Positions 10,869-64,000 of a stretch of 64,000 nucleotides of DNA are shown piece after piece. This stretch comes from Bugulina stolonifera (taxonomy: Eukaryota > Bryozoa > Gymnolaemata > Cheilostomatida > Bugulidae). Every line of letters begins with the position of its first letter. Positions within the stretch are counted from its first letter, which is position 1. The position numbers were made by a program, and so were the translations under genes. Below the pieces are notes generated by a model. That model saw only the letters and a list, made by a program, of their open reading frames with translations. It had not been told where the DNA came from and ran no database searches. The stretch covers positions 3,498,876 to 3,562,875 of the forward strand of contig OW285194.1 of NCBI GenBank assembly GCA_935421135.1. Direction: 5' to 3'.

Positions 10869-10969
10869 GCTGACCATTCTTCAGGAAGGAAGAGCAGGTG
10901 AGGAAGAACAGCCTGTGCAAAGGACCTTATGGATTCTGGAAGACGTACTGTGGGTGGGAGAGAATATAA
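10869..10969 (+). pseudogene. Decayed exon-2 relic of the cysteine-rich peptide family
   Basis: The 3' half of an exon 2 survives: a frame reading LCKGPYGFWKTY then a TAA stop, closely matching the family's post-Cys6 tail. The Cys5 position has become Ser, an in-frame TGA lies just upstream, and the first four Cys are gone. The flank downstream (11.05-11.27 kb, with AATAAA at 11174-11179) matches the downstream flank of the gene at 16.3-17.5 kb, which supports an old duplicated copy. A long open frame on the opposite strand is only its antisense. Confidence 0.6.
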
Positions 10970-13453
10970 TATACGGAAAATCTGTTGTATCTGTATGATG
11001 GTAGTGCTTGTATTGTACATTTGGACAAATCACATGCATACATACATGTAGGGCAGGCCCGTGTACAGTGTTACTATATTATTACCCAATGATACAATTT
11101 TTCGTTAGCTAATTATTTTCATGGAGCGAAGTCACTTCTGATACACTTGTAAATGATACATTGGCCATATGAAAATAAATTGGTTCATCATCCAGCAAGA
11201 ATCTTTTTAGCACCAGTACCGTATTAGCACAAAGTGATTGACTTCAGATGCCAACCTAGAAAAATTGTTTCTACATGTACATGTACGTACATGGGCATGT
11301 ACTGTAGCTATTACTATCCTGATTCTAATGCTCATATCACAGGTCAGTGTCAAACGTTCAAAAACTGCAAGTTGTACCAGTTTGAGTTTTGATAATTGGA
11401 ATGCAATGTTTTCAGGTAAAATGGTTGGTTTCATTATTTTGGAGCAAAATTCCTGCTCACCCAAACTTCATTATTAGACAATCTTGTTTTTACATGTGGC
11501 TTGAACAACATAATTATCCTAACTATAACCTGAAACGTGTTAAAATCAATTCCAAATATAAACATGGTTAAAGCTTAAAATCACAGGCTTCTGGCTTTCT
11601 ATCAATGGCTGCGATAGTTGGAACAATAACGAAATACAAATTGTACCAATAACAATACAATTATTGTGTTGAGACTAATTATAACCAATTGTTTGGTATA
11701 ATAATAATTAATGATATTATTGTTCAACCTCAAGTAGGCTTACCATTGTCTAGTAACAACTCCAGCAAAATGCTTAGTGAAGTGCAGTTTAAATGAAACA
11801 AACATACGGATTTGTTTGCTCAATGCAGCCACTTTTCCACCATGTTACAGGACCAAGGTGCTAGTTTGGAATTTACAGGTATTATCTTTGACCTATGGCC
11901 TTATCTTCTATCTCTGTTTATAGTCCGAATGCTTACTACATGTCCTCATAGATTTACTAACCACTAGTAAGATGTTTTCCAGCAATAATCGTTAGATTAG
12001 GCCACTGAGTAAAACCTGCTCTGGAAACTATTGCTGGCAAACATAATAATATTATTATTATGTTATTTTGTTTGTAATAGCTCTGAAAACCTACAGGATG
12101 CATTACAACGCATAAGAAATGAAAATGAACCCGGGGTTACATATTCACTGGTACTAAAAGGTACCTTCTAATAGTATTGTCGAAAAAGTATCATTGACGT
12201 GGAACAAAACTTCAAAATCAACAATAACCGTTTACTCAACTTTTGGCAGTCACCATGTTTTACAATACAAACTAACAAAGGAGTGCTACAGTAGTACTAT
12301 AACCACATTATCCAACACTTGTGGTAATAAATGGTATTGTTAGTCCACTCTTAGAAACAGTTTAAGGATACCACATAAAATGTAATGTACATTTCTTTAA
12401 AAAATTGGGTGAGCCAGTAATTTAAATGTTGCTTTACTATCCTTCATGCACTTGATAATGTTCGGTACAATAATGTACGTAATTGATGTTGACAGTTCAG
12501 GTTCTTCACAGCAATGTTTGCTTGTCACTAAAATATTGAAATAGGTTACATGGACATGTACAGTGTACAAGTACAACACTGTACATGTGATAAACTGCCA
12601 CATACATGTAGTGTGATGATTTGCCGTACACTCTCATACAAATTATACAAACAAACAGATTCATATACAACATTTCAAATCTATATTTTGCCGATTCATG
12701 CACAATTACTGGTATGTAGGAATTATAAAGTTTTTGTATCTCACTAAGAACTCTGGCGCACGATGTGTGTGTATACTCTACCAAACTTGTGAGATGGTAT
12801 CTGGAGAATTGAGAACAAATATGCCATTTACCTTTTATTGGCCATATCTGTCCTCCCTACACCTCGGATATACAGTGTGGTAGTAATGGAACATAATCAC
12901 ATTACTATTCGATGCGTTAAAGTCGTCATGTACGTGTAGAACGTAACAGTTCCAGTAAGTGGCATCATAAAGTCAAGCATGTTAAGTAAAAAGTGAAGGA
13001 ATATTAAAATACTTTAACAGGAATACTGACTAAAACAGCTGGCAACAAATGAATTTTTTGTCAATTCAGATGTTGTAAATGCAGTCAGTCAGTATAATCA
13101 TAAACTGAGTAGCATGCAAAATAAAGCTTGTTATTGAAGGAGTCAAGAGTCAGCGATATGATATAAATCGGGAATGGAAGCCTGTACTATGATATACATG
13201 TAGAAGAGAATACATTACGAATTGGCATATTATGGTCAAATAGATGAGATAATCATGGACCCATTGTAGAGGCGTTTGCGTTGGGCAATTGGTTAGTGAG
13301 CCAATTTTTTCAATTGTTTTTAAACCATTAGGCAAATAGTGCAGGGATACATTGTATGTTCATGAGTAAATTTTTACAATGAATAGATTCCAGGAGTAAA
13401 CAGGCTGAAAGATCCGAATTGCAAAGTATACAGAAAACAAAATTCTCATCGCA

Positions 13454-13827
13454 ATGAACATCAATATATTGTACAATGCAGCAGTTGCGAGAGTCTTACT
13501 GCATATTATGTACATACTTTATGTGTCAAATAATTATAATATATACTACATGTATTTTATGACCTAGTCATGTATACAATATGTGGATATATGTATTATT
13601 GGGATTTCATAGCAGTATCTGTATTGATTTCAGGTAGCGTTGAAGGAGATGAAAGATGTCCAGTGGATGACAGGAAGTGTGATCAAACGTGTCGTGATCT
13701 GAGCCCTAAAATGACTGTAGCTTGCCCTAAAATTAGAAGAAAGGTCTGTCTGTGCAAAGGACTTCCTGGACACTGGATGGGGTACCGTCTGTTGAAAAGC
13801 TTGACCAGGAATGAACTTCCTTGTTAA
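13454..13827 (+). pseudogene. Cysteine-rich peptide gene, copy 1: intact exon 2, damaged exon 1
   Basis: Exon 2 (13634-13827, after a TTTCAG acceptor) is complete. It has six Cys spaced C-x6-C-x3-C-x10-C-x7-C-x-C, then KGLPGHW, and ends in an extra terminal Cys before TAA. An exon-1 homologue starts at ATG 13454, but the donor region is altered and no phase-1 GT remains where its relatives have GTGAGT; the upstream TATA box is also missing. An ATG at 13570 is in frame with exon 2 through the intron end and gives a hydrophobic N-terminus, so an unspliced product is conceivable. I favour a gene that has lost normal first-exon function; the coding exon itself is not decayed. Confidence 0.6.
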
Positions 13828-16224
13828 CACATAATGTATGTTACATTTGTGTACATGTCTACTGCAATTGCTACGGGAGCACTGTTAGTCAGTGTAGTAG
13901 CATGCCGCTATGCCCTGATCTTACAGGTTTTGTGAGTGTGATTTTATGTAATGGAACTGCATTGAACATTTACATGTATGTAATTGCACATAATTGCATA
14001 ATATCAATTATGACATATTATGTTGGTGTTACAAAATATAAATTAACGTTTGCAAATAGTTGTTTATTAACTTTGCTGATTGAGAGAGAAAGAAATATAT
14101 TGGTAAGAGTGATTGTATGTGATGAACCAAAAATTACTAGCAAAGCGCTGGTGCTATTGTAATGCTGGGCACACAAGTTCCGGTTTAGAAAAACCCTTGA
14201 GAGGGTATGTTTAATGCTAGGGTAGAAATTTGGGGATTCAAGGCTCAGCGGAAGCGAGAGCTGGAACTATGCTATTCTAGGAAAGAAGCCTCTATCTAGT
14301 TCTACAATATACATGTACTGTAGATGGGTCTTTATTGGAGTCAAAGCATCTACAGATTTCCAATGAAAAAACACACACTTTATAATATAGTATGGCATTT
14401 CCAGAGAGTTCTGGTAAAAGTACGATATAGTATCGGCATGCAATGATAAGTATACATATATGTACACAAGTGATTACACAATATATTATGGTATGAATAA
14501 AAGTACTGAATTAAGATAGACAACTACCAAAGAACTAGTGTGCATCAAATGTTAGACCAGCGGAGATTGAGACTACAGGTATGTTACTAGTGCAAAGGAA
14601 TTTCCCGCCGCACCACAAAATTCAGTCTTGGCGTGATTTACTGCTAAGGACTAAACTCACCGGCTTTACTTCTTGGCGTGACCAGCCTGTTGCATCTTGC
14701 ACTGCCAGGGGTAGAGGCGTTGCCTTGAAGTCATGCTGGCTTGCATGACCTCAAGGACTTCTATATAAAGCACATGAGCAATTTCGGCTAGATGCTTTTC
14801 TTAACACAGCTAAGATCTAGAAGACTATAAAATAAGAAAGTAATGTACATATATACAGGTATATGCATATAAAACATTCACTGTTATCCCATAAATAGTT
14901 TAAATGAAACAAAACATATGAGTTTTTCTGCCAAAGATAGTAATTGTATTGTGCACCATGTTACGGAAGAAATATGTCAGTTTGGTATTTAACTCTTTAA
15001 TATATTTTAAAGAATTTCCACAAGCGTCTTGCAGTCTTATTGTGGAAACAGTTTCATTGAGGAAACATGGATTCAAACACGTAGTCAAACAGCTTCCTTA
15101 ACTCTTTCACTACTACCATGTTTTACCAAATAGACTGCATTGCTCCAACCGCATTATCCAAGGCTCTTAGTGATACCTGGAATCATCAGCGTGGTTTTAG
15201 AGACAACGCAAGGAGTTCTTCTCCAGAAACACATGTAACAATGCTGTAGATTCTTCTATCAATCTGGATGAGTTTGCAATTGGAAAGTTTCTTTACCATT
15301 CTACACGCACCTGATAATGCTTGGTACAAATGTTCATGTACTATATTTGTATTGCCTTACCTAAGACAGTATTCAGGTGCTTCACAGCAAAGTTGAATGT
15401 ACTGTACTTTAGTGGCGCTAACACTTTTGTCACATAACAGATTAAGTTATGAGTACACATGCAGTAAAGTGACGCATAGTGTGATAGTTTGCTGCATACT
15501 CTCTTACTTATTGTAGAAATAAACAGCTCCAAGTACAACATATCAAATATATTATACTGTGCTGATCCATTCAACATTACAGGTAAGTATGGATCAGGAA
15601 GTTATTTCTTTTTACTAAATATCTCTGGCATGCAATGAGTGCGTATACTCTTCTACACTGGGTAGATGGTTTGGAGATGCTGCTGTCTTGATGATTGAGA
15701 ACAGATTCCTTTAGCATAAAGCTACAGACATAATTATATTCACCACACCATGGCTGCGCGGTGTGGTAGTAATAGGACAGCAAGCTTTGAGAGTGTAAGA
15801 CGATATATATAAAAAGTAGCAGCTTAAGCCGGTGGAATCTAAGAGTCAAGTACAGTACGATGTATAAAGTGAAGGGATATTAATAAAATTTTACCAATAA
15901 TATTAATTAGAGCAACAATACTAGCAACATCAGAGTCTGCTGGCAATCCAGATGTCATAAATGGAGTGAGAGTAACCATAACATTGGATGGGGTGGGGTA
16001 GGGCGGACAAGCCCTGGTGTGGATTGAGCCAGGGTCTGCTTTATGTCAATGAAAAAGAGTGGCGGACTGAAAAATATAGGATTGAATGATTTAAGCGCTG
16101 GCATAACGTCAAACAAATGAAAAAAGTATAGATGCATTGCAAATGAGTTTGTATTGGAGCATTTAGTAAATAAGTGCATTGTTGTATTGTTCCCAAGACA
16201 ATAGATAAAGGATAAACAGACATT
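13828..16224. other. Intergenic part of segmental copy 1
   Basis: No gene is seen. The 14.9-16.2 kb part is the upstream region of the next peptide gene and is related to 11.7-13.4 kb and to 36.7-37.2 kb. The stretch at about 14.63-14.77 kb is GC-richer and has no match in the second copy, so it is probably an insertion. Confidence 0.5.
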
Positions 16225-16232
16225 TATATAAA
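16225..16232 (+). promoter_or_regulatory. TATA box (TATATAAA), peptide gene copy 2
   Basis: TATATAAA lies 78 bp before the ATG at 16303, followed by a conserved GCAGTCTCTAGAATGG block also present in copy 3. The same spacing recurs across the family. Confidence 0.75.
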
Positions 16233-16302
16233 GCAGTCTCTAGAATGGTTGAACAGTTGGGCGGTTCAACTCTTACAGAATAGAAGACACCCTTCCATCA
16301 AA

Positions 16303-17508
16303 ATGAATATCAATTCATTCTACTATGCAGTGGCTGTCGGAATCTTCCTTTATATGACTTGTGGTAAGTACATGTAGATATATGCACATCATATCTGTGC
16401 GAATGTGTACTATTGGGATTTGACTGCGTGGATACACATTTACCTAAGTAGGAGGCCTACTCTGGATGATAACTGAAGCGTCAGAATACTATCCCATGGT
16501 TTGGAAAAATTAGGTTTGGTCATATAGCGGTAGTGTATAACTTGTAGCTTGCACTGAGTGTTTGCTGTGCTAAGAGTTTCGAACAACGATGACTGATTTT
16601 TAAACTTGGTCAGCTTGACTAGACTTTATTAAATACTTTGGAAGAAAGGTTTAAATCTATTGATAAAAGTTCACATTGTGTGAGTTTATTTTATAAATAG
16701 ATGAGAATTTCTAAATGTATTGCACTAAAAGTGCATCAGATTCAAACTCTTCAAATATTATTCAAACCATTTAGTGAAATGAATGATGAAGCTTTTTGAC
16801 CGTGTTTCTAGCACAAAAACTTGGCCATTAGAGCATGTACATGTACAACCTAACGTTAGGTCGATATCTTTCCTCGGTGTAAAGTTCATCAGCAGAAAAT
16901 GAAGGACACATGTTTTGCTTGTATCAACTATTTCATATTGTGTCTAGGTGACATACATATGGGTACATGAGTCACCCGGTCTACAAGGCATTGTATTTTC
17001 ACTAAAGCTTGGAAAAAATAAAAACTACACATGTCAAGAAAACTGATCAGAGGTGTTTCTATTTGCCATTGGTCGGTCGGTCGGTCGGACGGACGGACGG
17101 ACGGACAGACAGTCGGACAGACAGACGGACAGACAAACGATCGGCAGTCAGTCAACCGGAAAGCTGCTGAAATAGCACTTTGTTTCTTTGCCTTGGGTAC
17201 AGTTTAGGTTAACGATTGAACACAACACTATTGATTTCAAGATGCATGTAATGTTAGTTCACCAGATGATGATATCTGTGTTGGTTCCAGGTAGTGTTAA
17301 AGGGAATGAAGGATGCCCAGGTGATGACAGGAAGTGTGATCAAGCATGCCGTGACCTAGGACGAGACTTGACTGGGGGTTGCTCTCAACTTGTAAAGAGG
17401 ATATGTTTGTGCAGAGGACGTGATGGAATCTGGCAGGGCTATCGTATATGGAAAAATGAAATATTGAGAGAGCTTTTAAGTGTTTTTAGTTATCCAAATT
17501 TGGGTTAA
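16303..17508 (+). CDS. Secreted cysteine-rich (CS-alpha-beta defensin-like) peptide, copy 2
   Basis: Exon 1 (16303-16363) encodes a 20-residue hydrophobic signal peptide beginning MNIN. The donor GTAAGT splits a Gly codon (phase 1). Exon 2 (17291-17508, acceptor TTCCAG) encodes the mature peptide: a short linker, six Cys spaced C-x6-C-x3-C-x10-C-x7-C-x-C with TGG before Cys4 and CLC at the end, then a tail with GIW and a hydrophobic end. The CxxxC and CxC pairs with Gly-x-Cys are the hallmark of CS-alpha-beta peptides. By analogy Cys1-4, 2-5 and 3-6 would pair. This fold is used by antimicrobial defensins and also by some ion-channel peptides; activity cannot be read from sequence. AATAAA is at 17592. 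It is a close duplicate of the gene at 37310-38469. Confidence 0.85.
17071..17137 (+). repeat. GGTC/GGAC tetranucleotide microsatellite
   Basis: GGTC units switch to GGAC units and then to a degenerate GACA/GACG tail, inside the intron of peptide copy 2. The equivalent intron position in copy 3 (about 38.08-38.12 kb) has a much shorter, interrupted version, so the array expanded or contracted after duplication. Confidence 0.9.
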
Positions 17509-17591
17509 CATGGCTGATCTTACAGCTTTGTTCGCGAAAAGTATTTGTTTGAAATTACACACAATGTATAATGCTATGTTGGTGTTACCAA

Positions 17592-17597
17592 AATAAA
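17592..17597 (+). terminator. AATAAA polyadenylation signal, copy 2
   Basis: AATAAA lies 84 bp after the stop codon at 17508. It is conserved in sequence context with the signal at 38565 after copy 3. Confidence 0.7.
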
Positions 17598-17979
17598 TCC
17601 GTTGACAAGGCACACAATACCTTCCAAAGAGAACTTATGATATCATCACCTTATTGATAGCAAAGTGATTACATATACACGTACATCTACAAGTAATCTC
17701 AAATTATCATTAACATAGAGCAGGCCCGAGTACAGTGTTACTACTGTATGTCTACAGCAGTGAACTATTATTACCTGATCCTACAACTTTGCGCGAGCTT
17801 ATTATTTTCATGCAGCCAAGTCAGTTTCGATGCACTGGTATAATCATAACACCAGTAACATATTAGTGTTATAAAAATAAATTGGTTCTCAAAGGAGGCA
17901 TTCATCAACCAGAAAGAATCTTTAGTATTAACACAAAATGATTGACTTCATATTTTGTTAACCTACGAAAAACATTCCA

Positions 17980-18520
17980 AAATTGTACCATGTACAGTAT
18001 ATACACATACCATGTACAGTATATACACATACCATGTACAGTATACACACGTACTATATACAGTATATACACGTACCATGTAACATATATACACATACCA
18101 TGTACAGTTTAAGACACATACCATGTACAGTATATACACATACCATGTACAGTATATACACATACCATGTACAGTATACACACGTACTATGTACAGTATA
18201 TACACGTACCATGTAACATATATACACATACCATGTACAGTATACACCCGTACTATCTACAGTATATACACATACCATGTACAGTATATACACATACCAT
18301 GTACAGTATACACACGTACTATGTACAGTATATACACGTACCATGTAACATATATACACATACCATGTACAGTATACACCCGTACTATCTACAGTATATA
18401 CACATACCATGTACAGTATATACACGTACCATGTAACATATATACACATACCATGTACAGTTTAATACACGTATCATGGGCAGCATATACACATACCATG
18501 TACAGTATATACACGGACAT
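17980..18520. repeat. 22-bp minisatellite with 132-bp higher-order period
   Basis: About 24 units of ACCATGTACAGTATATACACAT with a few fixed variants (ATGTAACATATATAC, ACTATCTACAG, CACCCGTACT). The variant order repeats: the block starting CACACGTACTATG occurs at 18179 and again at 18311, a 132-bp (six-unit) super-period. Open frames on both strands here are artefacts. Confidence 0.9.
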
Positions 18521-18756
18521 CCAACTATTGTCATCATGGTTCTATGCTCATGTAAAAGTAGAAACTAAACTTGATCTAACAATAATCACATGCAGTATAC
18601 CATATTGCAATGTTTTGTGCTACGGCTTTCCCACGGGTGCCAATGTTATAGCACGGGTGGGGGAAGCGCTTGGTAGTGGTAATGGGCTGCCAAGGTAAAC
18701 TTCCACACATTACATAAAGAGTGAACAGTTAGGTAAGCACTTGCAGTTATTGTAGA

Positions 18757-20488: not shown

Positions 20489-21082
20489 TGTCACAATATT
20501 CTGAAGTATACTAACTCATACCTAACACACTTGTCACAAATACTGAGATGTTATATGTTATGTACGATACCAGCTAATACATTATATTATTTTACTACTA
20601 CTATATACTACATGTATATAATACAAGGTATGAGGAAGAAGCCTACATACCAATATATGACATCATTACTTTATGTCAACAATATTTAGTACTGTTCTAA
20701 ATATAGTGTGACTCAATATGTGATTGTGAAATACATAGGGCCTACTAGAATATTCTTATTACTAAATAATCATGTTATACTATAATACTGTTTTCTGGAA
20801 CATTCTTACATGACAACTTTATTATGGAATTTATGCAATATGTTTCTGGAAAGTTCTTTCTATTTTTACCCTTGGAATATTCTAGATTATAATGTTTACT
20901 ATATAAGCAGTTCAATTATACAATGCAAGGCAGTTATAGTTCAATTACAATAAAGGATCTACTACACACAGCATACTAGCTATATACACTACAAGGGACA
21001 GTCTCGTCAGCATAAGAAGTAGCTGCAGAAAATTACCTTGGCAGTACAGGCTTTTCGAACCTGTCACAACATACGTGTGACA
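20489..21082 (+). repeat. 5' LTR of the gypsy element
   Basis: 594 bp, starting TGTCACAATATTC and ending GTGTGACA. It contains a TATATAAGC promoter-like motif at about 20.9 kb and AATAAA about 50 bp further on, so U3, R and U5 can be placed roughly. Confidence 0.95.
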
Positions 21083-21101
21083 ATTGGGGGCTGCTCCGGG
21101 A
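21083..21101 (+). other. Candidate primer-binding site
   Basis: Immediately after the 5' LTR comes AT then TGGGGGCTGCTCC. A TGG start close to the LTR is where a tRNA 3'-CCA end would pair. I cannot name the tRNA from memory. Confidence 0.4.
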
Positions 21102-21172
21102 AGCCTCAAGTTCAAGGTATAACAGTTCGCACTAATTCTTTTTGTGGACAGAAGTAGACAGTCAGTAGCACA

Positions 21173-25534: not shown

Positions 25535-25568
25535 TTGTCTGACTCTGAAATTCCCAGAATTTCATCTC

Positions 25569-25579
25569 AAGAAGGGGGT
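25569..25579 (+). other. Polypurine tract
   Basis: AAGAAGGGGGT immediately precedes the 3' LTR at 25580, the expected place for plus-strand priming. Confidence 0.75.
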
Positions 25580-26173
25580 TGTCACAATATTCTGAAGTAT
25601 ACTAACTCATACCTAACACACTTGTCACAAATACTGAGATGTTATATGTTATGTACGATACCAGCTAATACATTATATTATTTTACTACTACTATATACT
25701 ACATGTATATAATACAAGGTATGAGGAAGAAGCCTACATACCAATATATGACGTCATTACTTTATGTCAACAATATTTAGTACTGTTCTAAATATAGTGT
25801 GACTCAATATGTGATTGTGAAATACATAGGGCCTACTAGAATATTCTTATTACTAAATAATCATGTTATACTATAATACTGTTTTCTGGAACATTCTTAC
25901 ATGACAACTTTATTATGGAATTTATGCAATATGTTTCTGGAAAGTTCTTTCTATTTTTACCCTTGGAATATTCTAGATTATAATGTTTACTATATAAGCA
26001 GTTCAATTATACAATGCAAGGCAGTTATAGTTCAATTACAATAAAGGATCTACTACACACAGCATACTAGCTATATACACTACAAGGGACAGTCTCGTCA
26101 GCATAAGAAGTAGCTGCAGAAAATTACCTTGGCAGTACAGGCTTTTCGAACCTGTCACAACATACGTGTGACA
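25580..26173 (+). repeat. 3' LTR of the gypsy element
   Basis: 594 bp, the same length as the 5' LTR and identical to it by eye apart from one A/G difference. It is followed directly by the AACGC target duplicate. Confidence 0.95.
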
Positions 26174-26178
26174 AACGC

Positions 26179-26781
26179 CATACCGGACGTAACTACAGAC
26201 CTCTGTTATAACAGTAGAAGCAAGAGCACAACATCATACACTACTGCTGCTCTCCATTACAACACCAACATCTTAGACACAGAGTGCACTACCATACTGA
26301 CAACTACCGTCATCAACAGACAACCTATCTTGGCTGCCGGTATCTGCATCTACCCTGCCTCCCTGTATTTACCCTGTCCTCATGTGTATGACTTGATGAT
26401 TCAACACCTGCTGACTTTTCGGAATCTGAGTGGTGAAAATTGACTTTACTAAAAATTTACTACTCACTATTATAACACTACCCAGTCTAACGTATTTTGT
26501 AATTGCAATTATATATTTTCTGTTTTTGTTCAATTCATATATTATTTTTAGTCACTTCAGTGTTCCGTACTTAGGGTTTATGCTAATTGAGCTTGCACTG
26601 AAGGACTTGGCCCTATGGTGCGCACTGTTCCCCTTGCATTGTTGGGCAGTGTTTGTCTGGTCTCTGTGGTTTGCTCAGTTGCCATTGCGGGCATCCTTTC
26701 ACTGTCCGGCTTGGGTGGTTGTGCCTGTTGCTGCTTTCCCGGTGTTGGCTGGGCTTGCCCTGGCTGCTGACCTGTCGCATT
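26179..26781 (+). other. Leader region of the gag-only element
   Basis: This is the sequence between the gypsy insertion and the gag-like frame. It ends with a GC-richer block at 26.58-26.78 kb. Open frames here are short, and one does not begin with ATG; I assign no product. Confidence 0.4.
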
Positions 26782-31975: not shown

Positions 31976-31995
31976 ATGCACTAATTCATTACAAA

Positions 31996-34917: not shown

Positions 34918-34980
34918 ATAAACACCATTTTATACTGCACCATACAGTAGCTGTGGGAATCTTACTTTACGTGACATGTG
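34918..34980 (+). pseudogene. Orphan exon 1 of the peptide family, start codon lost
   Basis: The sequence aligns through GTGGGAATCTTACTTTAC to the first exons of copies 3 and 4, but the ATG is ATA and the donor GT after ACATGTG has become AC. The counterpart of exon 2 (13634-13827 in segmental copy 1) is absent before the conserved flank resumes at 35.2 kb. Confidence 0.75.
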
Positions 34981-35419
34981 ACAGTGAATAAATGTACATG
35001 TTTTGCATGTTGCGTATAACATAATTATACTACATGTAGATATACATTGCACATCCAGTATTGAGGCAGTTACAACTGGCTCCAAGGAATTACTCAATAT
35101 ACATGTACATGTAGGTGAATTGCAACAAATTATACATGTATGTACACAGGATAGTGTAAATACAAAACTAATTGCGCAACATAATTATGGTATAAAATAA
35201 CAGTATGAATTAAGATAGACAACCGCCAAGGAACTAGGGTGTATTAAATTTTAGACTACATGTAGTTGGGGCTGAGACTATGTTGCTAGTACAAAGCAAT
35301 ACCCTGCCACACTACAATATTTAGTTCTGGTGTGATTTACTGCTAAAGATTAGAAGACTACAAAATAGGAAAGTACACGTGTATATATAAAACAATCACT
35401 TTTTTCCCATAAGCAGATA

Positions 35420-37231: not shown

Positions 37232-37239
37232 TATATAAA
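37232..37239 (+). promoter_or_regulatory. TATA box (TATATAAA), peptide gene copy 3
   Basis: 78 bp before the ATG at 37310, identical in sequence and spacing to copy 2. Confidence 0.75.
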
Positions 37240-37309: not shown

Positions 37310-38469
37310 ATGAACATCAATTCATTCTACTATGCAGTGGCTGTGGGAATCTTACTTTACATGACATGTGGTGAGTAAACCTTTGTACATCATGTTTAAA
37401 TGAATGTGTATTATTGAGATTTCATTGCATGGATGCACATGTAATTGGGTAAGAGGCCTACTCAGGATGATAACTGAAGCATCAGAATACTATGCTATGA
37501 CTTGAGAAATATTGAGTTGTATCATATAGCGGTAGTGTATAACTTGTAGCTTGCACTGAGTGTACGCTGTACTAAGAGCTTAGAACAACGATGGCTTAAT
37601 TTTAAGTTTGACCAGCTTGACTAGACTTTATTAAATACTTTGGAACAAAGGTTTCAATATAATTACTGATAAAAGTTCAGATTGTGTGAGTTTATTTTAT
37701 AAATGGATGATAATTTTTAAATGTATTGCATTACAAGTGCATCAGATTCAAACTCTTCAAATATTATTCAAGCCATTTAGTGAAATGAATTATGAAGTTT
37801 GTTGACCGTATTTCTAGCACAAAAACACGGACTCTAGAGCATGTACATGTACAACATAACAGTAGGTCGATGTCTTTCCTCGGTGTAAAGTTTAACAACA
37901 GAAAATGAAGGACACATGTTTTGCTTGTATCAACTATTTCATATTGTGTCTAGGTGACATACATATGGGTAAAGGAGTCACTTGGTGTACAGGGTATTGT
38001 ATTTTCACTAAAACTTGGAGAAAATAAAAACTGCACATGTCAAGAAAACTGATTAGAGGTGTTTTCGTCTGCCATCAGTCAGTTGGTCGGTCGGTCAAAT
38101 GGACGTACGGACGATCGGGCAGTCAGTCGGAAAGCTGCTGAAATAACATTTTATGTTTCTCTGCCTTGGGTGCAGTTTAGGTTCACGATTGGATGCAACA
38201 CTATTGTTTTCAAGATGCATGCAATGTTAGTTCACCAAAAGATGATATCTGTGTTAGTTCCAGGTAGTGTTAAAGGAAATGAAGGATGCCCAGGTGATGA
38301 CAGGAAGTGTGATCAAGCGTGCCGTGATCTAGAGCGTGACTTGACTGGGGGTTGCTCTCAATTTGCAAAGAGGATCTGTCTGTGCAGAGGACGTCATGGA
38401 ATATGGCAGGGCTATCGCATATGGAAAAATGAAATAATAAGGCGACTTTTAGATGTTTTTAGCTCCTAA
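37310..38469 (+). CDS. Secreted cysteine-rich (CS-alpha-beta defensin-like) peptide, copy 3
   Basis: Exon 1 (37310-37370) encodes a 20-residue signal peptide and ends in a phase-1 split Gly at GTGAGT. Exon 2 (38264-38469, acceptor TTCCAG) gives six Cys with C-x6-C-x3-C-x10-C-x7-C-x-C, TGG before Cys4, CLC, and a GIW-containing tail that ends sooner than in copy 2. The intron is 893 bp. Promoter, exons, intron and 3' flank are all paralogous to copy 2. Differences fall in exon 2 (for example near Cys3 and Cys4) and at the C-terminus. All splice sites are canonical, so this is one of the safest functional members. Confidence 0.87.
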
Positions 38470-38564
38470 TTCGGGTTCACATGCCTGATCTTACAGCTTT
38501 TATTGTGAAAAGTATTTGTGTGGAATCATGCGCATAATGCATAATGCTATGTTGCTGCTACCAA

Positions 38565-38570
38565 AATAAA
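38565..38570 (+). terminator. AATAAA polyadenylation signal, copy 3
   Basis: About 100 bp after the stop codon, in the same CCAAAATAAATCC context as copy 2. Confidence 0.7.
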
Positions 38571-38685
38571 TCCATTCACAAGGCACACAATACCTTCCAA
38601 CGAGAACTTATGACACCGTCACCTTATTGATGCAAAGTGGTTACATGTACATGTACATCTACAAGTAATCTCAAGTTATCATTAA

Positions 38686-39961: not shown

Positions 39962-39969
39962 TATATAAG
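39962..39969 (+). promoter_or_regulatory. TATA box (TATATAAG), peptide gene copy 4
   Basis: 69 bp before the ATG at 40031. Confidence 0.75.
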
Positions 39970-40030: not shown

Positions 40031-41464
40031 ATGAATAATAATATATTGTACTATGCAGCAGTTGTGGGAATCTTACTCTATATGAATTGTGGTGAGTGGA
40101 TCATTGTATTTATGGATTATGACTGTTTTACATTGTATATCATCATCATATGTTACATGTGTATAAAAAGATGAAACGGTCCGTGGTGTACGATCTGTCG
40201 TCTTCCAATCAGATTTGGGATCAAAAATTGTTGCAATGCTGCCAGTCATCATCTGGCCTCCGGGCCGTGCTATGACCTCGGGACCAGGTCCCCCAACATT
40301 GATGCCGGGGTGGGTCCCTAACCTTAGGACCTCGGGCCTAACCCAGGACGGGGTGGGGTGGGTACTCGACCCACCGTACCCGCCAAGTATGTGATGGAAC
40401 TTTAGCCATTATGACAGCAGAGACCCTCTTGGACCCATGATCTACATGTATATAATATGTTGCAATGAAATTCAATGTTAAATTCTTCAATTTCCAGTCA
40501 TTTTGGCTAAGCACTTAGGAGGGAACATTCCAATATTTTGAGAAAGCTTGATATATTGTTTTGTCAGTTATTTTTTAGATTCTTCAGCATACGTAAATTA
40601 ACTGGGAAAACAATGCGTTGCCAATGAATATCCATCCAAAGATGAGCAGCTCTATTGAATAACTCAAAGTCAGTGGTTATGGCATGGGCTCTGTTATGCA
40701 ATCAGGTTTCTATTGTTAAACTAGAATGTGATGCATTGGTTTGCCAGTTATTCTGTTGGATTTTGGTCAATACATTGTTTTCTCAGTTAAACTACATGTA
40801 TTACAACATTTACCCAATGCAGTGCTTCATCTGACTGTTGATGACACTCTTTGCAATTGGAATTCAAATTCAATATTTCGACACATAAAACTGTCGGTTA
40901 TGAACATTTCATAAATGCAAAAATGTCAGAATCAAAAATTTTGGTGATGCATTTACACGTACATTGTTTTGTCAGATATGGGCAGAATTGGTATTGCATT
41001 TTCACTAATGCCTGGACGCGGCAGAAAAAATGAATTTACACTGTAAATCATAAAAAGATAAGCATAGGTGAAGTGCATACATCCAGTGTATGATTGAAAC
41101 TAAAATTCCTGCTTCCTTGCTTAGAGTACAATTCAACTTACAATGATGAGCACACCAAGGAGGTGGCTTTACGTTGCATACAGTTTGCAATTGCCAAATA
41201 ATGACATCTGTATTGGTTTCAGGCTGTGTTAAAGGAGATGCAGGATGTCCAGGTGACAGCAGGAAGTGTGATCAAGCATGTCGTTATCTGAGTCATGAAT
41301 TAACCGGTGGATGTTCCATGATTGTAAGGAGGAACTGCCTATGCAGAGGACCTCTTGGATTCTGGAAGAGGTACAGGGCCTGGGTAAAAGTTCACCAGAA
41401 ATACACGCATGTACCTGCTCATTTTCCAATGGCTGGGACAGTCTGGCGGTATGGGAAGCACTAA
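40031..41464 (+). CDS. Secreted cysteine-rich (CS-alpha-beta defensin-like) peptide, copy 4
   Basis: Exon 1 (40031-40091) gives a hydrophobic signal peptide beginning MNNN, with a phase-1 GTGAGT donor. Exon 2 (41223-41464, acceptor TTTCAG) has the six-Cys pattern (x6, x3, x10, x7, x1) plus one additional Cys at its second residue, so the mature peptide would have seven and might dimerise. After Cys6 comes RGPLGFWKRY, then a His/Lys-containing tail longer than in the relatives. The 1131-bp intron contains a GC-rich dispersed repeat. AATAAA is at 41556. Confidence 0.85.
40175..40460. repeat. GC-rich dispersed repeat in the copy 4 intron
   Basis: Related to 19494-19790; shares GTCTTCCAATCA/GTCCTCCAATCA, GTTGCAATGCTG, ACCAGGTC and CGGGGTGGG words in the same order. 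Confidence 0.7.
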
Positions 41465-42463: not shown

Positions 42464-42470
42464 TATAAAA
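42464..42470 (+). promoter_or_regulatory. TATA box (TATAAAA), peptide gene copy 5
   Basis: 74 bp before the ATG at 42538. Confidence 0.7.
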
Positions 42471-42537
42471 GCAATGCTCATTAGTAAAATGGGTAGACAA
42501 GTATTTATCATGAAACGCAGAACCATATTTTAACGCT

Positions 42538-44111
42538 ATGAACATCCAGATACTGTTCCTGTACTTTGCAGCTATTTCCGGAATCTTCATCTACATGTTG
42601 GGCGGTGAGTGTGTTGACAGAATATGCTCGTAATATTGTTAATGTAACATACTGTTCCTGGCATAGCATGCCAGGGCATTGGTTTAACATTATGTCAAAA
42701 TATTGCACTATGGACACGATTTGCTTGGAAAAATACTGGTAGCTTTGTAAAACTTGGCTGGAGATAATACATGCATAACTGGTATATATTATTTTTTGCC
42801 AAGCATTAAGCAGGTAAAGGTCGATGCACAGTATGAGTCTATTCTATCACCATTGAACATGGGATGACATTTTATTTCAAAATGCACTGCTTCATACAGG
42901 TGAAACTTGGAGCTTTGACTGCTACCACGGGTAGACGTTTATATCAGACACATGCTTTCTATTCCTTAGAAGGTATAAACCTGGGCCAATAAGCTTTTTT
43001 TACATATAATAGCAGCTGTGAATGTTTGCCAAAGTCTGTTGCTGTGCTATCAATATTCCAGGTTAAGCAGGAAATACTTGCTTGCACCTATACATACATG
43101 TAATACCCAAACGCTCACTGACCGAACCTATTTTAGTTACGTGAGGTAAAGAATGAGTGTAGTGTGTCAATTGAATTCATTCTGTTCCCTGGACAAAGTG
43201 ACGAGCATGTGACATTCGCCCATCAATGCAAGAACCACGAACATGTTCTGGTTTACAAATGAAAGCGCAGGACGTAGATGAATATGCAATAATAACATTT
43301 TTCATCTAAACAATTTCATTCAACTCATTATACATTTTTGAATGTTGTGGTGTTTTTGCCAATCTTTGCTACTGTTTTAACAGACTTTGAGCATCTAAAG
43401 CTTGCTTAGGTATATAAGGGATATATAATAACTGAATATAAACCAACATTGTTCAGAAGCGACTAGTCAATACTCTACCACTATGGATGCACAAACATTG
43501 CGCTTATACAGTGTTATAGTTGTCAGTTTGTTGTGGAATATTTGTTTACATGCTGTCTGGTGAGTGAACCGGTGTAGTTTGATCAATATAGTGTACACGT
43601 CTTATGCATTACATATAAATGTGATGGTTATCAAATAGCAATTCTGTTTAACCTTCAATGATGAAAGTAAATATGCATTCTACAAGTTCCTTCCATCAGA
43701 AGTGCGGTTGATATACACATACATCTACATTACCTGATATTATGATTGTGCTTCAGTGCTGTAATTAGACCTGCTATTTCTGTTTAGTAGGTTATGTGCT
43801 ATGTACATTGTAAATGCGCTGTGTAATATGTCACTACATGTACAATGCACATGAAAATATGTCAATGTATGCTAGTCATTCTTACTGAGAATCTGAACTG
43901 TTTAGGTCAAGTTAAAGCCGATGTCGGATGCCCGGACGCTGAGGAAGATTGTGACCAAGCATGTCAGGATTTAAACCATGGTTTGACTGGTGGCTGTTCT
44001 ATGATTATAAAACAGGTCTGTCTGTGTAAAGGACCTCGTGTATTCTGGATAGCATACCATATCTGGCATGCATATAGCAAGGTAGTGGACTCTATGACAT
44101 TCATTCCTTAA
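42538..44111 (+). CDS. Secreted cysteine-rich (CS-alpha-beta defensin-like) peptide, copy 5
   Basis: Exon 1 (42538-42604) encodes a signal peptide (MNIQ... with a hydrophobic core) and ends in a phase-1 split Gly at GTGAGT. Exon 2 (43906-44111, acceptor TTTAG) has six Cys (x6, x3, x10, x7, x1), TGG before Cys4, CLC, and a KGPRVFW tail. Its first loop is acidic (DAEED) where others have DDRK. Joining these exons skips a second, frameshifted exon 1 with its own TATA box at 43.4-43.6 kb, so which promoter is used in vivo is unknown. The pairing is inferred from frame and order. AATAAA is at 44183. Confidence 0.75.
43411..43418 (+). promoter_or_regulatory. TATA box (TATATAAG) before the frameshifted exon 1
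   Basis: 72 bp before the ATG at 43483; spacing as in the intact genes. Confidence 0.6.
43483..43559 (+). pseudogene. Second, frameshifted exon 1 upstream of the copy 5 exon 2
   Basis: It starts ATGGATGC and aligns with family first exons up to a good GTGAGT donor. A 1-nt shift relative to relatives makes the exon end in phase 2 and read into TGA. In the corrected frame there is no ATG (a TAG lies upstream). It could not feed the phase-1 exon 2 at 43906 as it stands. Confidence 0.65.
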
Positions 44112-45457: not shown

Positions 45458-45829
45458 AGCCTATGTGGAGCGCTAGAGGAAGGAAATCAACACACTGGAT
45501 GACCTTGACTCTGGTTGAAGAATGTCTCCAAATGTGAGATCGAGGAGCTCAACATTGTGAGCTTATATGTACATTCTAGACCAACCTCTTCAGAGATTAG
45601 TGTGTCTGGAGGTCTAACCTACATTGTAGATGTACACTGCGTGTACATCTAGTTTAGACTCCACACCTGCGATAAGTGTGCATTGTAATGCATACTATAG
45701 AAAATAAATTTAAGGGGAACGTATTGTGGGCTAACCTACATTACTTACATTATTATGTTTATCTCTCATGTTATACAAGAAAGTATATACTATACAATAT
45801 GGCTCAAGTAGTACAAAGTGTATACTTAC

Positions 45830-45890
45830 AGATCAAATTGCAGAGCAACACCCCAAATACACTCACATATTATATTATCTGAATTATCAT
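45830..45890 (-). pseudogene. Orphan exon 1 of the minus-strand subfamily, nonsense mutation
   Basis: 61 nt aligning to the first exons at 47300-47357 and 51611-51668 (shared TTTGGG, CTCTGCAATTTG and T-GTAAGT donor). Codon 7 is TAA. No exon 2 is found downstream on the minus strand before the LTR at 45234. Confidence 0.75.
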
Positions 45891-46028
45891 AATGACATGA
45901 TTGCTTTAAACCCACACTCCAAAGTTGTCTTCAGAATATCTTTTAGCTTCCCTACATCACCCTATATTTACCTCTTTACTTTTTAGCATAGGTGCCAGAA
46001 TGACCCTGTGCCAATCATTACTTATTAG

Positions 46029-46693: not shown

Positions 46694-47357
46694 CTAGTGA
46701 TATTCTATGTAAAGGTAAAAGAGCTCAACCCATGTTAAACTTGACCATGTGTGCCAGAAGCCTTTGGGTCCTTTGCATAAGCACTTCCACTTTCTGACCA
46801 TTGAACATCCACCAGTAAAATCTCTGTGTTTTAAAGCACGGCATGCTCTGTCACACTCATCGCCATCACCTGGGCAACCAGCATCTGCCATGATTGCTCC
46901 AGCTAAGGTTAGAACCACATCTATATATATTTATTCAGACCAAGTGACTTCGTGGTTCTATCCATTAACCCACTGCAGGTTACAGCTACATGTATATTGC
47001 AGGTCGCTAACCAGGTACAGGTTACACTGTGCAGGCACTTTTGACTCAACAATGAAGGGCGAAGTTCAGCTTGTAAATTGATATCCGTTTCGAACAAACA
47101 GTCTTTGAGGAGAACAAATTGCTCAATGACCCATACACACTGTAGGCTTAAATATAGAGATTGTATATAATTTGTTATCCTAAACTAATACAATAGTACT
47201 GTATGTTTCTCTCTCATGATTTACAAAAAGGCAGATTATGCATGCATATACACTATACAATGTAGAATATGGTTTAAGCAGCACAAAGTGAATACGTACA
47301 GAACAAATTGCAGAGTAACATCCCAAATACAGCAACATATAATACCTGAATCTTCAT
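46694..47357 (-). CDS. Secreted cysteine-rich (CS-alpha-beta defensin-like) peptide, copy 6
   Basis: Exon 1 (47357 down to 47300) encodes a 19-residue signal peptide beginning MKIQ. The phase-1 donor is T-GTACGT. Exon 2 (46902 down to 46694, acceptor CCTTAG) has six Cys with C-x6-C-x3-C-x11-C-x7-C-x-C, TGG before Cys4, CLC, then KGPKGFW and a Trp/Tyr-rich hydrophobic tail. The 11-residue Cys3-Cys4 gap and the MADAGC lead-in mark the minus-strand subfamily. The intron is 397 bp. An AATAAA overlaps the position just after the stop codon. Exon 1 is nearly identical to that of copy 7. Confidence 0.83.
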
Positions 47358-50726: not shown

Positions 50727-51668
50727 TTACTTAGGAGGGGCACATCTACCACCTTTGCATACCGTCTCAAACCATCTAAGATGTGCTAATAAGTACCATC
50801 TACGGTTGGGTCCTATGCATACGCATTTCGAATTATCCCTCCTTGAACATCTACCTCTAAAAGTCTTCCGCTCCAAACCACGGCATGCCCTGTCACACTC
50901 GGCGTCATCACCTGGGCAACCAGCCTCTGCCATCACTCTGGCTAAAATGACCACAATCTGCATGTATTTACTTATTCATACAAAATGACTGTGCAGTTCT
51001 ATTCCTCAAGCCACAGCAGTTTAAGCTAAAGCTAGCTAACCAAATTCTGGTCCCACTATGGATGCACACTTGACTCAACGATTAAGTGCAAATTTCGGCC
51101 TGTTGATATTCTCTTTGAAATTCACATCTGATATGCAATGTACTTTGCCTGGTAAAGCATAATACACTATAATACAATATTTAAGGAGAACACATTAGGC
51201 ATGTTCGGATATTGCACCGTGCAAGCTTATTAATAGCAATCTGCGGCAATAACAATATATTTTATTCAATAATATAGCGCTAGCTTCAACGCAAGGCAAG
51301 GCGTGCCTGGCAATAATAATATAAAGAATATTCACTTAGCGAGAGGATTCCCCTTCAGAGCAAGCACTAGTCACGCCTGAACGCTCAAGTTGTATTCGGA
51401 TAGTTAGACCAGTGCTATATGAACCAGTACAGTTTCCAAATACGCCTATTGTTGACTGACCTACATACACTGTAAGCGTAAATTATGGAAATTCAATATT
51501 TAATTGTCTAATCTAAAGACTAATATACACTAGCATGCTTCTCTCTAGGTACATGCATATACACTATACAATGTAGAATATGGCTTAAGCAACACAAAGC
51601 AATTACTTACAGAACAAATTGCAGAGTAACATCCCAAATACAGCAACATATAATATCTGAATCTTCAT
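50727..51668 (-). CDS. Secreted cysteine-rich (CS-alpha-beta defensin-like) peptide, copy 7, with extra Cys pair
   Basis: Exon 1 (51668 down to 51611) encodes a 19-residue signal peptide with phase-1 donor T-GTAAGT. Exon 2 (50941 down to 50727, acceptor TTTTAG) has the six-Cys core (x6, x3, x11, x7, x1), with CVC replacing CLC and RGR replacing TGG before Cys4. It is more basic than its relatives. The tail adds two cysteines five residues apart (VCKGGRC) before APPK and the stop, suggesting a fourth disulphide. The 669-bp intron carries the repeat at 51224-51451. A TTTATT (AATAAA on this strand) lies at 50623-50628. Confidence 0.82.
51224..51451. repeat. Dispersed ~215-bp repeat in the copy 7 intron
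   Basis: Partner of 46029-46242, in the same orientation on the plus strand. Confidence 0.75.
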
Positions 51669-51742: not shown

Positions 51743-51751
51743 TATTTTATA
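51743..51751 (-). promoter_or_regulatory. TATA box (TATAAAATA), peptide gene copy 7
   Basis: 75 bp upstream of the ATG at 51668 on the minus strand. Confidence 0.7.
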
Positions 51752-55184: not shown

Positions 55185-57245
55185 ATGAATTCCACTATGC
55201 TATCCGCAGTTGGGATCGCAATCATGTGCGTCATGTGCTGTAATTTGGCTCACTTTGTTTTTTTTTAAATTGGTTTTTTGACAAAACATAATGCATTGCA
55301 TTTGCTATTTTATATTCATATTTTAAGGTAGTGTTGGCCTATGTCCTGTGCACAACGTTTAGCTTCACAAATTTTGCTGTTGTCGTTTTTATTTCTCATT
55401 GAGCGAATACTTAAGGGTAGTATGACAACTTTCTCTCCCATAGGAAAAGTCTGGAGACGTGTATATACATGCATCTTACATGCATCGATACTCTGGTTCA
55501 TGTAGCTGATAGAAAGATACATGTATTTATTCAGTATAAAATTAACTATAATCTCATCCAGTTTCTCATGCAGTTAGATATTACATTATCAATGCAAGTC
55601 TAACCTCAGGAGTTGTCTACTCAGCACTCATTTCTAAAATATCTACAATGTAGTTCTAATTTTAATTTGTATCTAGTTCTAATTTTGATTTGTCAGCTTT
55701 TGTTGTTCATTCACATAATGGTTTGTTGACAGTTAAATGTGCTATGTTCTATAGGCTACCCGCTACCCCTGTTCACCCATGAGAGTTTCTGGAAAACATG
55801 AAAAAGTTTTATTTTTATTGAAATATACCCTCAAACAAGTGAGAAGTTTTCTTGCTAATTACGCTACCTTGATGTTTGAAATAAAAAAGACAAGTGAACC
55901 TATGTAGCTAAGGATCATGTTTTTAAAAGTGTAGAAAAAATTTACAAACAAAGTTGTTGAATGAAAATATTTTCATGTGCTTAACTGGATTACTCAGATG
56001 ACATAGACTGCCTTTGTTTGAGATCAATTTGTGGCAGATTGCATCATCTACTGCAGTACCTTTGTACCGACAGGATTTTTTGGACTACTCTAGCTAAGCA
56101 CTACCCAACAAGCTATTCGGCTTTTTGACTGGTTTTGGTCAATTTTGGAAATTTTCCCTCCGAACGAAGTATACGCATTGTCAGGCTCCAAAGTGTTAAC
56201 TGTAGTGACGACAAACGTCACAACTGTCACAACACCGACAAACGTCACAACAATTTTTCGACAAACGTCACAGCACCGACAAACGTCACAAAAGTGCACC
56301 GACAAACGTTACAAAAGTGCACCGACAAACGTCACAACACCGAAAAACGTCACAATAATTTTTCGACAAACGTCACAACACCGACAAATGTCACAACAAT
56401 TTTTCGACAAACGTCACAACACCGACAAACGTCACAAAGGTTCAACGACAAACGTCACAATGCCAACAAATATCACAAATTTTTAATAAAATAGCACCAT
56501 AACACCAAAAAATAATGCTTTTTGCCTTGATTTACCCTTCAATTCGATTATTTTTGTTTAAAGTATTTTCAGAACTGAATAAAACCGAAGATAGTTAAAA
56601 GCAGAGTGTGACAACTCCCAATAGAGAACATGAAATTGGCAATTCAATTTTTTCGTCAAAAACCAATACAACTGAGAAGAAGTAGATCTGCTTCTGCCCA
56701 ACCGTCTTGATTTTTAGCGAATAAATCCAATTGTTAATTTAGTATCCTCTATTAGGAGTTGTCTCACTCTGCTGTTAACTATGCGGCCTATATAATTAAT
56801 TCATTTAATAAATTATAATCACTCAATACTACTGTAACCACACGTATTTTAATAATATGCATGTACATGCATGATATAAGTATAACATGTCAATAAAGAC
56901 TGAAACAAGTCATTACTGAATGGCAACAATGATTGTAGCAAAATATGAATGGCAAGGATCTCTCAATAAGGATGAAAACACCAGCTATTACCAGATATGG
57001 GCAAGCCAAACGAAATATCCTTTAATGGCCATTTAACTACATGTCCATTTAGAGCTAATGGTGGATGTCCACGGAACTCCAGTGAATGCAATAGACAGTG
57101 TCAATCACTGCATCTCAAGCTAGAAGGTGAATGTTCCCAAGTAATAAAGAGAAACTGTCTGTGTCAGGGACCATACGGCTTTTGGAAAAGATTGTCCCAT
57201 TGGCAAAAACTAGACAGAAAAGGCTATCTCCCTAGTGAATTTTAG
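55185..57245 (+). CDS. Secreted cysteine-rich (CS-alpha-beta defensin-like) peptide, copy 8
   Basis: Exon 1 (55185-55239) encodes an 18-residue hydrophobic Met/Cys-rich signal (MNSTML...) and ends T-GTAATT, phase 1, with a weaker donor. Exon 2 (57055-57245) follows TTTAGAG; only the second AG keeps the frame, because the first would create TAG with the split T. It has six Cys (x6, x3, x10, x7, x1), EGE before Cys4, CLC, then QGPYGFWKR and a Lys-containing tail. The 1815-bp intron contains the ACAAACGTCACAA minisatellite. AATAAA is at 57348. Confidence 0.75.
56211..56479. repeat. ACAAACGTCACAACACCG minisatellite in the copy 8 intron
   Basis: About 12 units with an invariant CGACAAACGTCACAA core and spacers that alternate between CACCG, AATTTTT and AAGTGCAC. 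The core contains ACGTCA, a CRE-like half element. The open frames reading TNVTTPTNVTT are products of the period. Confidence 0.9.
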
Positions 57246-58909: not shown

Positions 58910-59529
58910 TTACTTGTATTCCAGCCATTTTAGATATGACCACGTTCTCCAGGCTCCATAGCGTCCTTTGCATATGCACTTCCACCATCTGACCTTCGAG
59001 CATCCACCAGTAAAATGTCCGAACGTTATAGCACGGCATGCTTTGTCACAGGCATCACGGTCACCTGGGCAACCAGCATCGGCCATTATTTCATCTAAAA
59101 AAAAATTAGACCAGTCGGGTATCTACTTATTCAGATGATAACAGACATCACAGTTAGCGACTAATAATGCATTTGTTCATAGGCGTAGTAGGGTTATACA
59201 ATAGAATACTATGAATGCTACACCTACAACAGAACGATGAGGTTCAAAGTGCAGATTGTTCACAATGTTAATCCCAGTACTAAGATAAATGTCAATCGAT
59301 TATTTACATGTATATTTAATATAGTACTCGAAGGAATATCTAAGTAGAACACAAAATATGCATATGTGGTAAGTAGTATGCATACTACATAGTGTACGAC
59401 CTAGTACACAACATGTACATGTAAATGTACATTTACATGTGCATTTAAATGTGCATGGAAATGATGTGAGACACACAAAGCAATATTACTTACAGAACAT
59501 ACAGCAATGTATATTAATTGGATCCTCAT
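58910..59529 (-). pseudogene. Cysteine-rich peptide gene, copy 9: intact exon 2, deleted exon 1 core
   Basis: Exon 2 (59094 down to 58910, acceptor TTTTTTAG) is intact: MADAGC lead-in, six Cys with x6, x3, x11, x7, x1, TGG before Cys4, CIC, then KGRYGAW and a Trp/Leu/Tyr tail ending in TAA. Exon 1 (59529 down to 59494) keeps the ATG and T-GTAAGT context. Relative to copies 6 and 7 it lacks 22 nt of the hydrophobic core, leaving 36 nt that end in phase 0 and put exon 2 out of frame. Unless another donor is used, no secreted product results. The TATA box is still present. Confidence 0.7.
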
Positions 59530-59606
59530 GGTGATATTATCTCTCCAACCTCTCTCCTTCTCTTCTGCAGCGTCTTTTAACATGCATGTCAACCTTCTCA
59601 CATGAC

Positions 59607-61731: not shown

Positions 61732-61808
61732 GAGCTCATAGTGGATTTCCAGCAAGCTCGAGTGAGCGCAATAGACAATTCCAGTTGCTCTGTCTTAAAC
61801 TGCTACAG
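61732..61808 (+). pseudogene. Decayed exon-2 relic with Cys1, Cys2 and Cys3 all lost
   Basis: It aligns with the start of copy 8 exon 2 (GAGCTAATGGTGGATGTCC against GAGCTCATAGTGGATTTCC; GCAATAGACA conserved). The three codons for Cys1-Cys3 read TTT, CGC and TTC, that is Phe, Arg, Phe. The second half is missing after an ACAG and a T-run. No exon 1 was found upstream. Confidence 0.75.
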
Positions 61809-63237: not shown

Positions 63238-63244
63238 TATAAAA
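63238..63244 (+). promoter_or_regulatory. TATA box (TATAAAA), peptide gene copy 10
   Basis: 81 bp before the ATG at 63319. Confidence 0.7.
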
Positions 63245-63318
63245 CTCAAGCACCAAGTTGGACCACACATAACTCCTATGAGAGAGACATTATACATAGC
63301 ATACAGAGTGGCAACAAG

Positions 63319-64000
63319 ATGCAGGTGCTCTACTATGCAGTACTGCTGGCAGTGTTGCTTCATGTGTTTGGTGAGTAGGAATATCGAAATTAGTAATTTG
63401 GTTTTGAATAATGTTAAAACATCCGATGGTCTTCTACAATCGTGTACATTAATTGGTACATACATTGTAGGTGCAATGTACTCTTACTTTTGCAGCATGA
63501 TTTTTATACGTGTTACATGCAATAGACATGGAATAGCCTTTCCTCCCTAACCACACAGTATACGCAGTAACACTTGCCTAACTAACAAATTCTGTGTACA
63601 GCATGTTGTATGGTCGTACAGTCTATTTAAAGAGTAGACTACAAAAGAATTTAAATATATTAGTGTAAATGGTTGAATTTTTTTCCAATAACATGCCACA
63701 AGCATTGTAATTAATGTCAAGTCTGTCTAAAGGTGGTAAAGTTCCTTGGTGCTCACAATCCTAAACCTGTTTGCGGCAAAACAATTTATGTACATTGTAT
63801 CTGCCACTAGTTAGAACGTCATTGGGTAGTAGTGAATGTCAAATCTGGTAGAAGAGATCAAGTATAGATATTATCATGATGAATTTATACATTTGGAATA
63901 CATTTGGTATGTGGGCTTATTATACATGTAGGTGATGTCGGAGCTATTGCTGGGTGTCCAGGAAGTGACAGACAATGTGATCACGCTTGTAAAAATCTTG
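63319..64000 (+). CDS. Secreted cysteine-rich (CS-alpha-beta defensin-like) peptide, copy 10 (cut by window end)
   Basis: Exon 1 (63319-63370) encodes a 17-residue signal peptide (MQVLYYAVLLAVLLH...) with a phase-1 split Gly at GTGAGT. Exon 2 starts at 63932 after GTAG and shows Cys1-x6-Cys2-x3-Cys3 before the sequence ends at 64000. The intron is 561 bp. The first loop (GSDRQ) is new. Nothing can be said about the rest of the mature peptide. Confidence 0.8.

Follow-up and report, generated by a model that had tools for sequence, protein, structure and literature searches.

A 64,000-nucleotide (nt) stretch of the genome of the bryozoan Bugulina stolonifera (the window; C8:3498876-3562875, where C8 matches chromosome 8) lies within a tandem array of genes that, at a probability we put near 0.7, encode small secreted peptides of the cysteine-stabilised alpha-beta (CS-alpha-beta) fold, likely antimicrobial effectors of the animal. 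The spacing C-x6-C-x3-C-x10/11-C-x7-C-x-C occurs in nine open frames, found on both strands of the window, and these constitute nine complete exon-2 units, each with the Cys frame C..CxxxC..C..CxC (9/9). A chance origin of these frames is rejected because the six-Cys pattern was matched in none of 100 first-order Markov randomised windows. A first-pass annotation of the same DNA had described ten such units on both strands, the last partly visible, in an array starting at position 10869. Our scan bears this out: the tenth, U12, starts at 63932 and runs off the end of the window, its frame being open over C8:3562758-3563027, and the annotated start falls at a decayed exon-2 fragment (U1p, Table 1).

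The window forms the central part of a larger array, with at least 32 open exon-2 units across about 477 kb of C8. Scanning positions 3330001-3590000, a contiguous stretch, with a profile yielded 23 of these, and the same scan yielded 8 more from eight C8 loci beyond that 260 kb. The remaining unit, C8:3733593-3733769, is an open exon-2 frame by alignment; another alignment running past its end met a TGA. These counts are lower bounds, only a minor part of C8 between 3.59 and 3.83 Mb having been read, and the residue and charge statistics given below cover the 31 open units read, C8:3733593-3733769 having been aligned only. The genome searched comprises 27 contigs totalling 234,951,659 bases, of which C8 accounts for 16,401,861. 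One window unit used as query found 35 places, 34 of them on C8 (3.351-3.828 Mb) and one, weak, on C4, while two other queries found 31 and 33 places, every one on C8; a divergent L020 unit found 12, including the C4 place. Sequence distance between units grows with genomic distance (Spearman 0.27, reached by 3 of 2000 permutations), as expected from tandem duplication. Beyond the 32 there are broken or partial exon-2 copies: two in the window, copies with stops at C8:3819585 and C8:3821273, and partial copies at C8:3399358 and C8:3799411. The place on C4 (G000:C4:7732404-7732544; E 0.008, and 0.03 with L020) is the lone weak family match off C8 and possibly a distant paralogue. A segmental duplication (window 16005-17658 and 37010-38631, blocks 77-93% identical, 21 kb apart) carries U3 and U4. 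The window has a G+C content of 37.1% by base counts, and the same value is given for chromosome 8 in the available part of PMC10213821.

Of the 23 units in the contiguous 260 kb, 18 fit a two-exon model of signal exon, phase-1 intron, and mature exon. The predicted exon 1 of these 18 is hydrophobic, spans 17-22 codons, and finishes with a phase-1 donor that precedes the phase-1 acceptor by 265-1301 nt. Candidates were chosen first by hydrophobicity and donor score, and their mutual resemblance emerged afterwards. A profile built from the 18 recovers an intact-looking copy for a nineteenth unit, V04, and a damaged exon 1 for V02, U2, and U10; for U9 the profile search found none. In 15 of the 18 predicted genes the ATG is preceded, at a distance of 67-99 nt, by a TATAWW box, and the word TATATAAG in the TATA region is common to nine. 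Within the window, the first-pass annotation had placed a phase-1 acceptor ahead of each unit and, for the majority, a signal exon with a TATA box; an acceptor is indeed readable for all units (its position ambiguous for U9), seven of the ten have an intact exon 1, and of these seven all but U7 also have a TATA box. Signal cleavage is predicted three residues before Cys1, where residues -3 and -1 obey the usual rule in 22 of 23 units, a count that has no control set. Poly-A signals within 700 nt past the stop accompany 20 of 23 units against a background of 0.68, which is weak evidence. Past the 260 kb, a scan of about 1.5 kb upstream of each of five units gave exon-1 candidates for L026 and L029 and none for L018, L022, and L027; the profile finds a candidate exon 1 for one L020 unit (E 1.6e-6) and for L024 (E 0.028), and leaves the L026 and L029 candidates unsupported (E 35 and 14). 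Two exons with a phase-I intron, the layout predicted here for 18 of 23 units, are also described for scorpion defensins and likened to mollusc and arthropod genes in the excerpted text of PMC6435467. Two orphan signal exons, C8:3480648-3480724 and 3481312-3481384 (the second with a stop), have no exon 2 found downstream, where a 200-base run of N stands at C8:3483676.

All six Cys are present in 29 of the 31 open units, with the spacing 6-3-10/11-7-1 in 26; Gly directly precedes Cys1 in 30 and stands two before Cys4 in 28, and 28 have a Trp located 6-9 residues past Cys6. Net charge is +2 or higher in 28/31, much of that charge being located in the tail. AlphaFold2 models of U3 contain one helix and three strands, as the first-pass annotation had expected of a structure prediction, and one model places a further helix in the C-terminal tail. 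Together with structural alignments to defensins and toxins, the models predict the arrangement of the CS-alpha-beta fold, in which one helix packs against a sheet of two or three strands, and the core would be held by Cys1-4, 2-5, and 3-6 disulfides. In the structural search with the core model, 34 of the first 36 matches are defensins, related antimicrobial proteins, or scorpion toxins (kaliotoxin, noxiustoxin, tamapin, Ts3). By virtue of this Cys frame and predicted fold, the family appears to sit in the CS-alpha-beta superfamily.

Sequence profiles point the same way, if faintly. Alignment A3 leaves out L024 and both L020 units and comprises the other 28 of the 31 units read, and its profile matches the solved structures of BmKDfsin3 (E 6.3e-5), micasin (0.0025), and eurocin (0.0054). 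Ten of the 28 members touch gamma-thionin in Pfam (best E 0.00066), and four match Defensin_2 (PF01097) at E 0.1 or below (best E 0.024; first member 14 bits). The bacterial actinodefensin family NF038042 of NCBIfam is matched weakly by 7 of 9 window members at E 1 or below (best 1.6e-4; first member 20.5 bits against a cut-off of 65), but the array genes are, by prediction, two-exon animal genes. BmKDfsin3, the best solved-structure profile match, and the arthropod and mollusc CS-alpha-beta defensins resemble the array family in GCP at Cys1, CxxxC, G-x-C at Cys4, and CxC. Eurocin, micasin, and plectasin, which are fungal and of the ancient invertebrate type, share the GCPGD start and short Cys1-Cys2 loop, and eurocin aligns with the family over its own GCPGD and CRAL stretches. 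The best structural alignments are with the plant defensins NoD173, NsD7, and TPP3 (root-mean-square deviation 1.3-1.6 over 37 residues). Plant defensins have eight Cys, whereas the array model has six in its core, lacks the N-terminal strand, and carries an extra C-terminal tail. Big defensins are trans-defensins of another fold in the available portions of PMC8819291 and PMC7203481, and the array Cys frame differs from theirs.

Several observations weigh against an antimicrobial CS-alpha-beta array. The residue before Cys3 is Ala in 26, Gln in 3, and Thr in 2 of the 31 units; the His of the usual invertebrate pattern, which also belongs to the lipid II site of plectasin, occurs in none of them, so that CX4-15CX2HCX6-9GX1CX4-9CX1C, as given in the excerpted text of PMC6435467, does not describe the array. 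Further departures from arthropod and mollusc defensins are a Cys3-Cys4 loop of mostly 10-11 residues, the Trp tail after Cys6, and weak or no match to PF01097, for which all nine window units fall below the cut-off (best 13.8 bits against 20.4). Every other Pfam match is likewise below cut-off, both for these nine and, by E-values, for the 28-member set; the first-pass annotation had named a search with defensin profiles as a check, and the matches exist but none clears a Pfam cut-off. The plectasin homologue Py4 is reported to contact lipid II through its N-terminus, Phe-2, Gly-3, Cys-4, His-18, and Cys-37 (PMC8877149, available part). In the array units the Gly and Cys are mostly kept, but a Phe two before Cys1 occurs in only 1 of 31; with counterparts of His-18 and Phe-2 missing, these peptides are less likely to grip lipid II as plectasin does. 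Two of the 31 members are acidic, and in several members the core alone is neutral or acidic, with the charge carried by the tail. Confidence in the AlphaFold2 models, built from an alignment of nine paralogues, is moderate (mean predicted local distance difference test scores of 70.5 and 75.1). With the long model, Foldseek returned 717 matches, none at E 0.001 or below and unrelated chains first; re-alignment put an unrelated chain at rank 1, followed by six plant defensins. NF-kB-like sites are not enriched upstream of exon 1 (0.06 versus 0.11 per 500 nt). Finally, V02 is missing Cys6 and the reading frame of its exon 1 is broken; an exon-2 frame that is open does not by itself make a gene intact, and some open units, V02 among them, are probably dead.

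The first-pass annotation had also suggested that the family may be undescribed, and this still holds as far as the searches reach. Protein database searches returned 64 candidates with none at E 10 or below, 52 candidates with none at E 1 or below for the 28-unit profile, and, in a further search, zero candidates, in a database whose bryozoan coverage is uncertain. Genome searches with PF01097, PF14862 (big defensin), and PF14865 (macin) gave no match, but their controls were silent too, so these show no absence. In titles and abstract starts, no bryozoan CS-alpha-beta peptide appears among the matches listed for bryozoa and defensin, and no such defensin in the literature naming Bugulina stolonifera; the same is true of a bryozoan CS-alpha-beta defensin among the partial records listed for bryozoan immunity and cysteine-rich or toxin-like peptides. 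The main text of a zooid expression study of B. stolonifera nowhere mentions defensin, antimicrobial, toxin, or immun (PMC7534450), and a text search of the 2026 paper on the Flustra genome likewise gave 0 occurrences of defensin, antimicrobial, and immun (PMC13326412). A big defensin is reported from the Flustra foliacea transcriptome (PMC7203481, excerpt), and a superfamily review states, in the section available, that no criterion unifies 'invertebrate defensins' (PMC5116183).

The array members are most likely a bryozoan variant of the known superfamily, secreted as antimicrobial peptides, and we infer a role in host defence. Exon 1 would be spliced to exon 2 across the phase-1 intron and the peptide secreted after the predicted signal cleavage; a helix would then pack on a three-stranded sheet, followed by a further C-terminal helix, with the three disulfides presumably holding the core. 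The mostly cationic peptide could bind anionic microbial surfaces, the tail, which bears Trp and basic residues in most units and is helical in one model, may add membrane contact, and the set would stay diverse through the birth and death of gene copies. With more than 30 open copies, the locus would open a direct route into humoral immunity in Bryozoa, a phylum noted for its chemistry and its microbial partnerships. The predicted head-plus-helix layout would vary, in a way that can be tested, a scaffold in wide use among antimicrobial peptides, and the array would show how far annotation of short two-exon genes misses this superfamily. A bolder and decidedly tentative extension is that Bryozoa evolved a defensin class of their own, maintained as a locus with more than 30 genes, in which a CS-alpha-beta head joined to a fast-changing, Trp-bearing amphipathic helix acts as a two-part weapon or a tuner of resident microbes.

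The ratio of nonsynonymous to synonymous differences per site (pN/pS), pooled over pairs selected by similarity and not from a tree, with more diverged tails aligning poorly, is 0.32 in the signal exon (seven pairs), 0.59 in the core, and 0.75 in the tail (eight disjoint pairs), making the tail the fastest-changing part. Positive selection overall is rejected, the pooled ratio being below 1 in signal, core, and tail; selection for change in the tail alone is conceivable, given that two of the eight pairs (V11-V12 and V05-V07) have tail pN above pS. The fast-changing tail and the large array would also suit peptides that manage resident microbes or serve colony recognition, like the defensin-like proteins of plant nodules and pollen coats, in place of killing pathogens. 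The acidic members and one weak match to the pollen-coat family SLR1-BP (E 0.077) lean the same way, but most members are cationic, as is usual for killing peptides, and we regard this alternative as unlikely. Somewhat less probable still is that the peptides are toxin-like ion-channel or deterrent molecules built on the same fold and aimed at competitors or grazers. The scorpion toxins among the structural matches would fit, as would weak matches of one member to Pfam Toxin_3 (E 0.025) and of one to the long-chain scorpion toxin family PF14866 (E 0.037), and the two pairs with excess tail pN recall fast-evolving toxins. Against this, the best profile matches are defensins and pooled pN/pS stays below 1 in every part; the silence of the zooid study on toxins, in its main text, is a weak point since a relatively high share of sequences is unannotated there (PMC7534450). 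Decaying or chance frames without expressed product could account for the two exon-2 fragments of the window, the partial and stop-bearing copies elsewhere on C8, the orphan exon-1 copies, and the damaged exon 1 of V02, U2, and U10, but are very improbable for the array as a whole in view of its 32 open exon-2 units, shared TATA boxes, signal exons, and cleavage sites, pooled coding constraint, and the empty randomised windows.

Table 1 Features of the peptide array in the window (window coordinates; E values from profile searches).
Feature	Position	Strand	Evidence or remark
U1p, decayed exon-2 fragment	10874..10966	+	Cys5-Cys6 part and tail remain, Cys5 replaced; E 1.8e-7 and 1.6e-7
U2 exon-1 trace, truncated, signal-like	13445..13511	+	E 1.3e-10, profile positions 2-68 of 78; no donor found
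U2 exon 2, six Cys	13634..13827	+	pattern and profile
U3 TATA box	16225..16232	+	-78 from ATG
U3 exon 1, signal peptide part (predicted)	16303..16363	+	hydrophobicity/donor scan, profile
U3 exon 2, six Cys	17291..17508	+	predicted intron 927 nt; modelled structure
Partial exon-1 relic	34931..34980	+	profile E 2.6e-8
U4 TATA box	37232..37239	+	TATA scan
U4 exon 1 (predicted)	37310..37370	+	scan and profile
U4 exon 2, six Cys	38264..38469	+	predicted intron 893 nt
U5 TATA box	39962..39969	+	TATA scan
U5 exon 1 (predicted)	40031..40091	+	scan and profile
U5 exon 2, six Cys	41223..41464	+	predicted intron 1131 nt
U6 TATA box	42464..42471	+	TATA scan
U6 exon 1 (predicted)	42538..42604	+	scan and profile
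Decayed exon-1 relic	43476..43566	+	profile E 0.02, weak
U6 exon 2, six Cys, acidic member	43906..44111	+	predicted intron 1301 nt
Decayed exon-1 relic	45823..45896	-	profile E 0.00095
U7 exon 2, six Cys	46694..46902	-	predicted intron 397 nt
U7 exon 1 (predicted)	47300..47357	-	scan and profile; no TATA box found
U8 exon 2, six Cys and two Cys in tail	50727..50941	-	predicted intron 669 nt
U8 exon 1 (predicted)	51611..51668	-	scan and profile
U8 TATA box	51746..51751	-	-83 from ATG
U9 exon 2, six Cys	57055..57245	+	exon 1 not found
U10 exon 2, six Cys	58910..59094	-	pattern and profile
U10 exon-1 trace, degenerate	59470..59535	-	profile E 0.0065, weak
U11p, decayed exon-2 fragment	61734..61802	+	E 0.002, weak
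U12 TATA box	63238..63245	+	TATA scan
U12 exon 1 (predicted)	63319..63370	+	scan and profile
U12 exon 2, cut by window edge	63932..64000	+	predicted intron 561 nt; open to C8:3563027 outside

Other elements are interspersed with the array. A long terminal repeat (LTR) retrotransposon lies between U3 and U4 (window 20489-26174), with one frame of 1458 codons and two 595-nt end repeats; it is young, because these repeats are identical. Its domains run from a SCAN-like gag through protease and integrase to reverse transcriptase and RNase H, that is, a Ty3/gypsy-type polymerase in copia-like order, an arrangement we take to be of the Gmr1 type. Frames with SAP and DUF1759 domains follow directly (26602-28614) and are perhaps part of a second retroelement. 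A long palindrome at 35418-36445, whose 226-nt and 162-nt arms are 85-87% complementary, is a possible inverted-repeat element, and a minisatellite of 22-nt period with open frames on both strands occupies 17963-18536.

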